Source of the DNA: Rikenellaceae bacterium
Lineage (GTDB): Bacteria; Bacteroidota; Bacteroidia; Bacteroidales; Rikenellaceae
Direction of reading: 5' to 3'
DNA length: 64,000 nt
Assembly: GCA_015060065.1 (NCBI GenBank)
Contig: SUZF01000006.1
Location: forward strand, 30,207 to 94,206
In this document: positions 31,305 through 35,639 of the stretch, piece after piece
Numbering within the stretch: the stretch's first letter is position 1
Layout: every line of letters begins with the position of its first letter
Made by a program: the position numbers and the translations under genes
Notes under the pieces: model-generated
The model's input: only the letters and a program-made list of their open reading frames with translations
Databases searched by the model: none
What the model was told of the DNA's origin: nothing

Positions 31305-31901
31305 ATGACACAATTCAAAAATATAGTTTTCGACCTTGGCGGTGTGGTGGTGGCTCGTGACCCTCGAAAGGTTTCGGCAGAGTTTCAGGAGTTCTTCTCG
31401 TTTATCTACCAGATACCTATGCCGCACTTTTGGGAGGAGTACGACCGCGGTACATCGTCGTTGGAGGAGGTGAAAGATTATATTTGTGAGCATAATAACT
31501 GCTCGCGCGAGTTGTGTAGTGAGTATATTGCAACGGCTATTGACCTGCAAGAGGAGATTGCTCCCACGAAGGCTCTTATTGAGCAGTTGAAGGCAGAGGG
31601 ATATCGACTCTATGTCTTGTCTAATATGTCGCGTGAGTTTATCGATTTTATTCGTCGCCTGCCGGTATATGCTAATTTCGATGGCGAGGTCGTATCGTGT
31701 GAGGAGCATGTTGTGAAGCCCGAATCGGAGATTTTTAGGCTGTTGCTCGACCGCTACACACTCGACCCTGCGGAGTGCATCTTTATAGATGACCGTATAG
31801 ATAATATCGAGGCTGCGGAGCGGGAGGGATTCTGCGGTTTTCACTTCGACCGTCGCAATCCGCAGGCGAGTTGCGAACTGTTAAAAACGATGCTTTTATA
31901 A
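31305..31901 (+). CDS. HAD family hydrolase
   Basis: 198 aa; VFDLGGVVV, YVLSNMS, KPESEIFRLLLDRYTLDPAECIFIDDRIDNIEAAEREGFCG. Confidence 0.88.
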   Translation: MTQFKNIVFDLGGVVVARDPRKVSAEFQEFFSFIYQIPMPHFWEEYDRGTSSLEEVKDYICEHNNCSRELCSEYIATAIDLQEEIAPTKALIEQLKAEGYRLYVLSNMSREFIDFIRRLPVYANFDGEVVSCEEHVVKPESEIFRLLLDRYTLDPAECIFIDDRIDNIEAAEREGFCGFHFDRRNPQASCELLKTMLL

Positions 31902-31908
31902 TTTGACG

Positions 31909-31954
31909 TTTTAACAATAGGGGGAGATTTGCAAATCTCCCCCTATTGTTAAAA
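31909..31954. terminator. 46-bp perfect palindrome; bidirectional terminator
   Basis: TTTTAACAATAGGGGGAGATTT-GC-AAATCTCCCCCTATTGTTAAAA between convergent HAD and TonB-receptor genes; overlaps the receptor stop codon. Confidence 0.8.
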
Positions 31955-34900
31955 TACTACCCTCACACCCAACTGCATGTGCCAGCGCGAAAGGATGTCG
32001 TCTTTGGCGATTGAGGTGCCTGTGAATTGATATACCGGAGTCTTGTTGCCATTGCCGTCATCCGTGAGCGAGACGATGCGCACGGGTTGCAGACGGGCAT
32101 TCTTGACCGAGAGATATGCTCCCCAATCACGGCAGAGCAGATTGCCGAAATTGACCACATCGAGCGATAACTGCAACTTGCGGCCACTCTTGGCTCCGAA
32201 GTAGAAATCCTGCGCAATATGGAGGTCCAAGCGATGCTCCATGGGCGTTTGCAGGGCGTTACGCTCCGAGAACTCGCCACGATGTGCGCGAAGATAGGGG
32301 TCGCTCTCGATAAACTCGTTCCAACGCTCGGCAGAGGTGGCATCGGCAAAGGTCATCTGTGTCAAATCCTGCTTGGTGGGTATATAGACGAGCGTGTTGC
32401 CGGTCATAAGGTCGCCATTGAGGTCGGCACTCTCGCCATAGCAGAGCGAGTACCGCTGACCTGAATACATCTGATAAACCAGCGATACGGTCGTGCCGAA
32501 AAGACGCGCATAGCGACGGGAGTAACTGACTTGTGCCGTCAGTCGATGAGGTACATCGTAAATCGACCACGATAGCAGGGGCGAGTTGGAATCTACCGAA
32601 TATGTACGGCTCCAATTGTTCGCTTGCGATGATGATGCAGCATCGTAGAGCGAGCGTGTCTGCGAGTATGTGTAGGCCGCGTAGATATCCAGGCCAAAGC
32701 GGAACGAGCGACGCACCGAGGCGGTTGCCGACCACGAGTGACCCTTCGAGGTGTTGGTAGTGTAGTATATTGCCGAGTATTTCGGATCCACCGAGTAGTA
32801 GGTCGATGTGTTCGATGCGTTGGCTGCTGCCGGAGATACGGCATATATCTTATTGCCACTCTCGGTAAGACTTAAATTGCTGAATGATACATTGTTTATG
32901 GTCTTTGTGTAGAGGGCTTCGAGGGTCAGATGCCATCCCTCTCCGAGACTCTGCTCGATGGCGAGGTTTGCGCGTAGTACCTGTGGATAGCGGAACTTTC
33001 GGTCGAGAGCCTGAATTGAGGGGTTGAGGGTCGAGAGCGAGGTCGCCGCCGGGTATTTCGAGAAGGATTGAGCCGACTCGATGATGTTGCCTGCGCTGTC
33101 GCTTGTGCCTTTGAGGGTTACACCCTTCTGCTCGATGCCTGTGTTGGAGTAGTTATTTACAATCCAGACAAACGGCACACGCCCCGTGAAGAGACCTGCA
33201 CCTCCGCGAATAAGGGTGCGGTGTTGTGAATCCACCCACCAGCGGAAGCCCACGCGAGGCGAGAAGAGAATCTGCGCACGAGGGTAGTCGCCGATGCGAA
33301 CATTGTGGCGGGTAGCGATTGAGCCTGCGTTGAACTCCTCATTTACACTCGGTCCTCCGAAAATCAGCGGAATATCGGCACGCAAACCATACGTCAGCGA
33401 GAAGTGCTCCGAAGGCTTCCATTGGTCCTGAATGTAGAATCCGAGTTGCAGAGCGTTGAACTTGGGTCCCCACGTTTTGGTACCCGTGACGTTCTGGTCG
33501 GTGTAGTTGTACTGATACTTTGCCGCCATATCGCGCTCGAAGTCCGAAATGGAGTTGTAGGTGTAGGCACCGAGCGAGTTGGCAACATAGACCACGTGCG
33601 AGTGGTAAAACTCGTTGTGTGTGCCGAAGGTAAGCGTATGGCGACCCTTGTACCAAGTGAGATTGTCGGTAAGTGTCAGAGTGTGCTGGTCGAGTGAGTT
33701 GGCATTGGCGAAGCGATCAGTGCCGATATATGCCGTGCCTCCGCCATTTGCACCTACACCCTGCACCTCGACGTAGGGTAGATTCTCCTCTGTGTCACGC
33801 CCATCCACAACAAATGTGTAACCCACACGCAACTCGTTGTGCAGCATATCGTTTATGCGCGAGTTTAACTCTGCACTAACAGCATGTGAACGACTGACCG
33901 AGGTGTAGCCTGCTCCCTCGAAGAGGAATTCGGTGGGGGAGTTGGTGTATTCGTCCATTCTGCCATCGATAAAGTTATAGCGAGCCGAGAGTGTGTTGCG
34001 ACTATCTATATTCCAATCGAGGCGTGCTATGAGCGAACCGGAGGTGCGGTTGATGTCGCGCTTGCCGTAGCCACCACCATCATAGCCGGTCAGAGCCTTG
34101 TATCGTGCCGCTATGCGCTTCGCCTCGTCGGCAGTGAGGGCGGCACCTGCGTAGCCGGGGTAGTAGGTCGAAGGGTAACTATCAAGCCCGAACTCGCCAT
34201 TCACGAAGAAGAAGAGTTTATCCTTAACAATTGCTCCTCCGAGCGTTGCACCATAGATTTGTGTCGATTGGCGCGATAGTTTTGTGCGGTTGGCGATATC
34301 CTTGCCGGGGGTTGTGCCGTAGAAGTTGTGGTCGTTGTAGTAGGCGTAAGCCGAGCCTGCGAAGGTGTTTGTTCCCGACTTGGTCACGGCATTGATGCCT
34401 CCGCCCGTGAATCCGCCCTGACGAACATCAAACGGAGCCACTACAACCTGTATCTGCTCGATGGCATCGAGCGGAATGGGGTTTGCATTAGTAAGACCTG
34501 CGTTTGTGCCGTTTGATGTGAGTCCATACATATCGTTGTTCGCCACGCCATCAATGAGGAATGTGTTGTAGCGTGTGTTGGCTCCGGCAAATGACATACC
34601 TCCCGACTTTGAAGCGAGGGCTACGGGCGAGAGTTTGGCGACGTCGTAGATGCTACGGCTGACCGTCGGCAGCGAGGCTATATCCTCTGCCGTGAAGTTG
34701 TCGGCAGCACCCGTCTTTGCGGCATTGAATCGGTCGGCAGCATTGCTTGTGACGGTTACGGCATCGAGCGCGAGGTCGCTTGTGAGAGTGAATTTCATCT
34801 CGGAAGTGTTACCGAGGGAGAGGTGGATATCCTCGACCTTTGCGGAGCGATAGCCAATGAACGACACCTCGATAGTGTAGGGACCTCCGGTGCGCATGCC

Positions 34901-35104
34901 TTGGATGCGAAAGGCTCCGTGTCGGTCGCTGGCAACGCCATATTCGCTACCGGATGGGGTATGTCGCGCGATGATGGTTGCACATTGCAGGGGCTTGCCC
35001 TCCGAGTCGGTCACCGTGCCGTCGATTGCCGATGTGGTAATCTGTGCCATTGCAGCAAGTGCGGTGCTTACTGCCAAAATCAGAGATAAAATTAACTTTC
35101 TCAT
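31949..35104 (-). CDS. TonB-dependent receptor, Oar-like, under an FMN riboswitch
   Basis: Start moved to MRKLILSLILAVSTALAAMAQ; carboxypeptidase-like domain, plug ...YNTFLIDGVANNDMYGL...APFDVRQGGFTGGGINAVTKSGTN, long barrel. Confidence 0.9.
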   Translation of the reverse strand: MRKLILSLILAVSTALAAMAQITTSAIDGTVTDSEGKPLQCATIIARHTPSGSEYGVASDRHGAFRIQGMRTGGPYTIEVSFIGYRSAKVEDIHLSLGNTSEMKFTLTSDLALDAVTVTSNAADRFNAAKTGAADNFTAEDIASLPTVSRSIYDVAKLSPVALASKSGGMSFAGANTRYNTFLIDGVANNDMYGLTSNGTNAGLTNANPIPLDAIEQIQVVVAPFDVRQGGFTGGGINAVTKSGTNTFAGSAYAYYNDHNFYGTTPGKDIANRTKLSRQSTQIYGATLGGAIVKDKLFFFVNGEFGLDSYPSTYYPGYAGAALTADEAKRIAARYKALTGYDGGGYGKRDINRTSGSLIARLDWNIDSRNTLSARYNFIDGRMDEYTNSPTEFLFEGAGYTSVSRSHAVSAELNSRINDMLHNELRVGYTFVVDGRDTEENLPYVEVQGVGANGGGTAYIGTDRFANANSLDQHTLTLTDNLTWYKGRHTLTFGTHNEFYHSHVVYVANSLGAYTYNSISDFERDMAAKYQYNYTDQNVTGTKTWGPKFNALQLGFYIQDQWKPSEHFSLTYGLRADIPLIFGGPSVNEEFNAGSIATRHNVRIGDYPRAQILFSPRVGFRWWVDSQHRTLIRGGAGLFTGRVPFVWIVNNYSNTGIEQKGVTLKGTSDSAGNIIESAQSFSKYPAATSLSTLNPSIQALDRKFRYPQVLRANLAIEQSLGEGWHLTLEALYTKTINNVSFSNLSLTESGNKIYAVSPAAANASNTSTYYSVDPKYSAIYYTTNTSKGHSWSATASVRRSFRFGLDIYAAYTYSQTRSLYDAASSSQANNWSRTYSVDSNSPLLSWSIYDVPHRLTAQVSYSRRYARLFGTTVSLVYQMYSGQRYSLCYGESADLNGDLMTGNTLVYIPTKQDLTQMTFADATSAERWNEFIESDPYLRAHRGEFSERNALQTPMEHRLDLHIAQDFYFGAKSGRKLQLSLDVVNFGNLLCRDWGAYLSVKNARLQPVRIVSLTDDGNGNKTPVYQFTGTSIAKDDILSRWHMQLGVRVVF

Positions 35105-35106
35105 AC

Positions 35107-35143
35107 AAAAAAAATTAAGCCTCGTGAAGATTTTCACGGGCTT
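35107..35143 (-). terminator. Intrinsic terminator directly upstream of the TonB receptor start (riboswitch expression platform)
   Basis: On -: AAGCCCGTGAAAATCTTCACGAGGCTT then AATTTTTTTTG, about 2 nt before the ATG. Confidence 0.75.
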
Positions 35144-35337
35144 TCAACACAGAACCGATGCGGAACAACCATCTGCTTTGCGGTTGTAACCATCTGCACG
35201 AATCGAGCATCTGCAAGATTGTGGAGTTGTCATTTGTATCATCCACTGCACCAACCATATCGCCATAGTTGCTTGCCACGTGCCAATACACCTTTCACTC
35301 CTCTCGCCTCTCTCGCTCCTCGATAAGGCAATATCTA

Positions 35338-35566
35338 TGAATCTTCTTCCATCCGGACTTTGACCGTCGGTATCGGAATTTCACCGATTCAGTCCCTCTC
35401 GATTGCTTTCATCAGCGCGGCAGAAAATCCTGCATCGAATCTCTGCTTGCTCTGCACCTCTCTGCGCCCTTTGCACCCTTTTGCGCCTCTCTGTGCCTCT
35501 TTGCGCCTCTCGATTGGGAGTCGTGGACTATCACCACCGGTGGGGAATTTCGCCCCGCCCTGAAAA
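35338..35566 (-). ncRNA. FMN riboswitch (RFN element) with enlarged variable arm
   Basis: On -: TTTTCAGGGCGGGGCGAAATTCCCCACCGGTGGTGATAGTCCACGA ... GGTGAAATTCCGATACCGACGGTCAAAGTCCGGATGGAAGAAGATTC matches the RFN consensus. Confidence 0.93.
35395..35516. repeat. Repeat-filled insertion inside the FMN riboswitch variable arm
   Basis: 11-bp direct repeat CCTCTCGATTG at 35395-35405 and 35506-35516, bounding degenerate ~10-bp repeats (TTGCGCCTCT, CTGTGCCTCT, TCTGCGCCCT, TTGCACCCTT). Confidence 0.7.
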
Positions 35567-35639
35567 TCGATGCAAATATAGTGAAAAATTTCGTATGTGC
35601 GACAAAAATTGTATATTTGTTATGTTGTTTATATCCGAT

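Follow-up and report, generated by a model that had tools for sequence, protein, structure and literature searches.

What does an FMN riboswitch control when it stands before an outer-membrane receptor and away from any riboflavin biosynthesis gene? The question is raised by a locus within a 64,000-nucleotide stretch of a Rikenellaceae contig (SUZF01000006.1, positions 30,207 to 94,206), referred to here as the window. A sequence-only reading of the window had proposed that an aptamer and an intrinsic terminator on its minus strand subject an Oar-like TonB-dependent receptor to flavin repression, and that this receptor is a candidate outer-membrane importer of flavin or a precursor.

An FMN Riboswitch and a Terminator Precede a TonB-Dependent Receptor

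The aptamer, which had been placed at 35338-35566 on the minus strand, passed the check with Infernal against Rfam RF00050 (table 1). The match spans the whole model (1-138) with an E-value of 1.3e-20, and its score lies well above the gathering score of 66.2 bits, which served as the cut-off for FMN riboswitch calls. By covariance model this is a bona fide FMN riboswitch aptamer, with FMN binding inferred, and no other FMN riboswitch occurs in the window's assembly. It is preceded by the box TATATTTG, which is of the TAnnTTTG type that we take to be the Bacteroidota -7 promoter consensus; given its position, the transcript would begin near the aptamer. A degenerate repeat array enlarges the variable stem-loop, and 117 nt of this loop are left unshown in the cmscan alignment. 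The window aptamer measures 235 nt, compared with 121-216 nt at the other receptor loci.

The terminator was also described correctly, including its distance from the start codon. A spacer of ~190 nt separates the aptamer from the hairpin AAGCCCGTGAAAATCTTCACGAGGCTT (35143-35117), which is followed by the eight-T run AATTTTTTTT ending at 35107; the receptor ATG occupies 35104-35102. Upstream of the hairpin, the segment GCACGTGGCA could pair with the 5' arm of the terminator as an anti-terminator, although its position is not conserved across loci and the assignment is suggestive only.

The receptor has an N-terminus that is signal-peptide-like by inspection, and the CarboxypepD_reg, Plug and OMP_b-brl_4 barrel domains found by Pfam bear out its description as an Oar-like TonB receptor. 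It meets the criteria for a TonB-dependent transporter (signal peptide, plug and outer-membrane barrel). No NCBIfam equivalog was found that names it. Its AlphaFold model is of low confidence (mean pLDDT 59) and supports only the general TonB-receptor fold; the best Foldseek neighbors of this weak model are TonB-dependent transporters, mostly siderophore and metal receptors. The criterion for a SusC-type glycan importer is unmet, since inspection of the list of open reading frames (ORFs) found no SusD-like gene beside the receptor. In the same list it is directly flanked by genes for a HAD phosphatase and a glucanotransferase-like protein, and, as had been noted, no rib gene adjoins it.

Table 1. 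Features of the receptor locus, in coordinates of the window
Feature	Position	Strand	Basis or remark
Bacteroidota-type -7 promoter box TATATTTG (presumed)	35573..35580	minus	9 nt 5' of aptamer start
FMN riboswitch aptamer (RFN element)	35337..35571	minus	RF00050 full-length match, 95 bits vs 66.2
Degenerate 10/20-nt repeat in enlarged variable stem-loop of aptamer	35450..35511	minus	Tandem Repeats Finder
Candidate anti-terminator segment GCACGTGGCA, complementary to terminator 5' arm	35274..35283	minus	RNA duplex -11.6 kcal/mol
Intrinsic terminator, 11-bp hairpin and T-run	35107..35143	minus	dG -13.6 kcal/mol; ends 2 nt before ATG
TonB-dependent outer-membrane receptor, 1051 aa, predicted flavin importer	31949..35104	minus	Pfam CarboxypepD_reg, Plug, OMP_b-brl_4; Foldseek; ortholog profile
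HAD-IA phosphatase, convergent with receptor	31305..31901	plus	PF00702; neighborhood survey

The Riboswitch–Receptor Unit Recurs across the Family

To place the locus in context, we used 200 genomes sampled from its family (Rikenellaceae), mostly MAGs. All searches over more than 40 genomes ran with strict filters, under which weak matches are lost. An FMN riboswitch above the cut-off was detected in 20 of the 200 genomes, the window's included, and one further genome (G102) carries two weak tandem copies. In 18 of the 20 other riboswitch-bearing genomes, the riboswitch lies 85-290 nt upstream of an orthologous TonB receptor of 1021-1051 aa, with 47-93% identity to the window protein. These units sit in several different gene neighborhoods. 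The two exceptions are the only genomes of this set with RibB, and their riboflavin genes were apparently acquired or re-acquired: in G067 the riboswitch stands upstream of a second ribB that neighbors integrase-like genes (L033), and in G102 the weak tandem aptamers precede a ribD operon (L042). Outside the family, in 396 genomes of the phylum, every FMN riboswitch found with a recognizable gene behind it precedes ribB or ribD.

The riboswitch–receptor order was also found in four further named genomes (L073, L077, L080 and L081). Elsewhere, a receptor with 5 kb of upstream sequence gave no FMN riboswitch match (L074), and another locus is truncated by a contig end (L076). The named relatives of the receptor are Alistipes and Rikenellaceae MAGs from the ruminant gut. 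At L077, two equally scoring aptamers (37-189 and 1472-1624), ~1.4 kb apart, lie upstream of one receptor. A HAD-IA phosphatase gene lies beside the receptor at eight of the 19 riboswitch loci (the window, L023, L025, L026, L029, L032, L034 and L041); in six of these it is co-directional and directly downstream, and the window copy is convergent. Its product is a possible accessory that could be co-regulated with the receptor, but the evidence for this is weak.

All 19 riboswitch–receptor loci share the same order of promoter box, aptamer, terminator and ATG. The TAnnTTTG box is found 9-22 nt 5' of the aptamer at each of the 19 loci examined, and all 19 orthologous leaders have a stable hairpin with a T-rich run between aptamer and ATG, a number that dinucleotide shuffles would put at 0.8. 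The terminator sequences vary between clades, so it is structure rather than sequence that is kept. At 18 of the 19 loci the hairpin ends only 10-23 nt 5' of the ATG. This proximity, together with the weak anti-terminator pairing, would also fit a leader that controls a flavin importer in response to FMN chiefly by affecting translation, the hairpin blocking the start region. We consider this unlikely, because the T-run is retained at every locus, as intrinsic termination would predict. Candidate anti-terminator pairings are inconsistent across loci, and so the exact switching pathway is left open.

Receptor Presence Tracks Loss of the Riboflavin Pathway

A riboflavin auxotroph is expected to lack RibB, RibE and RibH and to retain RibF. 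The window's assembly (an Alistipes/Rikenellaceae-type MAG, 92% complete) meets all four criteria. RibB, RibE and intact RibH are missing from all 19 riboswitch–receptor genomes, every one of which is predicted from its gene content to be a riboflavin auxotroph. RibF was also found in 12 of 13 receptor genomes tested. Control genomes possess RibH, RibB and RibE, with RibE detected in 11 of the 14 controls.

We then considered the receptor irrespective of its leader. A close homolog (>1000 bits, or partial) is present in 60 of the 200 family genomes, and its distribution was compared with that of RibH, scored from strong RibH matches. The receptor occurs without RibH in 59 genomes and with it in one; 28 genomes have neither, and 112 have RibH only (Fisher 8e-28, without phylogenetic correction, so that shared ancestry is ignored). 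Put differently, 112 of the 113 RibH-positive genomes have no receptor, and G128 is the sole receptor genome with a full RibH. RibE follows the same division: apart from G128, none of the 57 receptor genomes tested has it, and it was found in 5/5 RibH-positive genomes, G128 among them. In a second genus, taken alone, the corresponding table points the same way, at 8/0/7/7 (p 0.02). Most of these genomes are MAGs, and single absences are therefore weak evidence; the strength lies in the overall pattern. The 28 genomes lacking both imply either that the absence of RibH can be made good by means other than the receptor, or that those assemblies are incomplete. Given its near restriction to species unable to make vitamin B2, the receptor is very probably their route of vitamin import. 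For this riboswitch target, the putative link to flavin is drawn from the loss of the pathway and from the phylogenetic profile.

Many receptor genomes contain weak PF00885 matches, far below the NCBIfam cut-off, in short ORFs beside a TPR-type gene and often recF. Their identification as true RibH was rejected: the matches are short, partial and far below the TIGR00114 cut-off, and the genomes also lack RibB or RibE where tested. They are better explained as putative degenerate ribH remnants, apparently at the former position of the gene. In several genomes without intact RibH, RibH-like ORFs of ~135 aa remain in frame (L169:3015-3446, L171:2845-3261, L168:2812-3210, L172:3027-3431 and L174:3040-3456), and these degenerate ORFs have possibly been repurposed.

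The profile also bears on the identity of the cargo. The receptor could be controlled by the FMN riboswitch and yet carry another cargo, such as an iron or haem complex, for which demand varies with flavin status; its Foldseek neighbors, albeit from a weak model, are mostly siderophore and metal receptors, and iron and riboflavin metabolism are reportedly linked. We nonetheless regard this as decidedly unlikely, given that receptor presence tracks riboflavin pathway loss almost perfectly and that all other Bacteroidota FMN-riboswitch targets with a recognizable gene are ribB or ribD. Finally, the loss of riboflavin genes and the persistence of ribH remnants in several relatives might suggest that the riboswitch is a non-regulating relic of a lost rib operon, left before the receptor by chance, but this is hardly tenable and is rejected on the conserved platforms: a full-strength aptamer is present and a terminator lies just 5' of the receptor ATG at 19/19 loci in several neighborhoods, and the remnant ribH sits elsewhere.

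A Covarying Hairpin Is a Candidate Second Leader

An FMN riboswitch accompanies 19 of the 60 receptors, and 41 of the 60 receptor genomes have none. In the receptor tree, all 60-genome homologs placed group as a single clade, separate from the family's other receptors (SH-aLRT 100), and riboswitch-bearing and riboswitch-free members interleave within it. The window's own clade (G000, G196 and G148) is sister to 13 riboswitch-free receptors. Among the 39 full-length riboswitch-free receptor genes (L117-L155), 30 feature a short hairpin 14-17 nt before the ATG (e.g. L136:2957-2997). It comprises a 5-bp stem, a conserved seven-base loop, (A/G/U)UAAAUA or in one variant UAGAUA, and a CC(C/U)UAAAU-type tail. 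Pairing holds in all 145 stem cells, with compensatory changes in four of the five pairs, and the covariation score is 0.859; shuffling gives 0.189, and sliding no more than 0.308.

A covariance model of the hairpin finds one match per genome, at the receptor, in 30/30 genomes, and none in the tested genomes that have an FMN riboswitch or RibH. Across 393 genomes of the order, searched with strict filters, it finds a single match (E 0.03). One additional borderline match, in G108 (E 0.05) upstream of a serine recombinase, is no more than chance would give with this many genomes. The occurrence of the hairpin once per genome at the receptor and its near absence from the 393 genomes of the order led us to reject a generic leader element. 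A known Rfam family was also rejected: nothing passed the gathering scores, and matches admitted at E up to 10 were at chance level. Most copies have a promoter box upstream, from which it follows that the hairpin is probably part of a transcribed leader; a second, sequence-variable hairpin is usually found at the leader's 5' end.

The hairpin is therefore a candidate second cis-regulator of the orthologous receptor in 30 sister auxotrophs, with its ligand unknown. As it replaces the FMN riboswitch before orthologous receptors of other auxotrophs, a flavin-responsive role is reasonable, though unproven. We propose only tentatively, and as an unlikely outcome, that it responds to flavin itself as a second, much smaller class of riboswitch, or is bound by an RNA-binding protein that does so, such that two unrelated RNAs interchangeably control one flavin importer. 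A lineage- and gene-specific covarying hairpin in the place of a known riboswitch gives a practical starting point in the search for a new flavin-sensing RNA. In G038 and G110, cobalamin riboswitches were observed downstream of the receptors that have the hairpin leader (L118:1126-1329 and L119:6326-6531).

A Proposed Model for Flavin-Repressed Flavin Import

Overall, we consider it likely that the FMN riboswitch and terminator repress a TonB receptor through which a riboflavin auxotroph takes up riboflavin or another flavin, with FMN binding, the direction of the switch, the substrate and the transport partner all inferred. The flavin-repressed importer first read from the letters alone gains support from the aptamer, the terminator, their recurrence, the pathway loss with RibF retained and the anti-correlation of receptor and RibH, while repression and substrate remain inferences. 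At high intracellular FMN, made by RibF from imported riboflavin, FMN would bind the nascent leader, the terminator would form, and premature termination of transcription would prevent synthesis of the receptor. When FMN is short, the leader would be read through and the receptor made. The receptor would then use TonB energy to bring flavin across the outer membrane into the periplasm, from where an unidentified inner-membrane transporter would move it onward, and RibF would turn imported riboflavin into FMN and FAD. The substrate may be riboflavin, FMN, FAD or a conjugate, and uptake, as opposed to another role, is itself inferred. The earlier suggestion to look for partner inner-membrane transporters elsewhere identified none: no transporter is consistently adjacent to the receptor across the riboswitch loci, and no ECF-S component (an ECF-type RibU partner) exceeded the cut-off in 22 genomes.

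Comparison with Known Vitamin Transport Systems

BtuB, with its cobalamin riboswitch, is a riboswitch-controlled TonB-dependent vitamin receptor. Its cargo is B12 (PMC11658791) rather than flavin, and no close sequence relation to the window receptor was seen. In Bacteroides thetaiotaomicron, OMthi (BT2390) is a TonB-dependent thiamine importer controlled by a TPP riboswitch, and there too, in a member of the Bacteroidota, a cofactor riboswitch precedes the outer-membrane TonB receptor for the corresponding vitamin (PMC5613172). The two differ in riboswitch class and vitamin; moreover, OMthi has the inner-membrane PnuT, whereas the window receptor has no nearby partner, and B. thetaiotaomicron still makes thiamine, whereas the window bacterium cannot make riboflavin. 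Oar-like/CarboxypepD_reg TonB receptors of Bacteroidota share the domain order of the window receptor, but those of the family fall outside its clade, at ~31-34% identity. PqqU (PDB 9c4o), a Foldseek match with ~9% identity in the structural alignment, is a TonB receptor for the small redox cofactor PQQ.

Flavin uptake is mediated by RibU and RibXY, which are controlled by FMN riboswitches (PMC3766115), and by PnuX, ImpX, RibN, RfnT and RibZ (PMC6593275). Several of these transporters are under FMN riboswitches, but all are inner-membrane proteins. Published FMN-riboswitch regulons comprise synthesis genes and inner-membrane riboflavin transporters, with none found in Bacteroidaceae (PMC3766115). 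A survey of gut vitamin transporters covers only known inner-membrane B2 systems (PMC6593275), and a 2024 review of TonB-dependent transporters mentions neither riboflavin nor flavins (PMC11658791). In the literature searched (open-licence papers only), we found no FMN-riboswitch-controlled TonB receptor and no named outer-membrane riboflavin transporter, for which this receptor family is a concrete candidate. The family offers natural auxotrophs that would depend on the receptor, together with a regulatory signature, and if the model is true, these Alistipes relatives would be consumers of vitamin B2 in the ruminant gut. The logic of a riboswitch before a TonB vitamin receptor is thus known for B12 (BtuB) and thiamine (OMthi), and its proposed flavin version is new in the literature searched.
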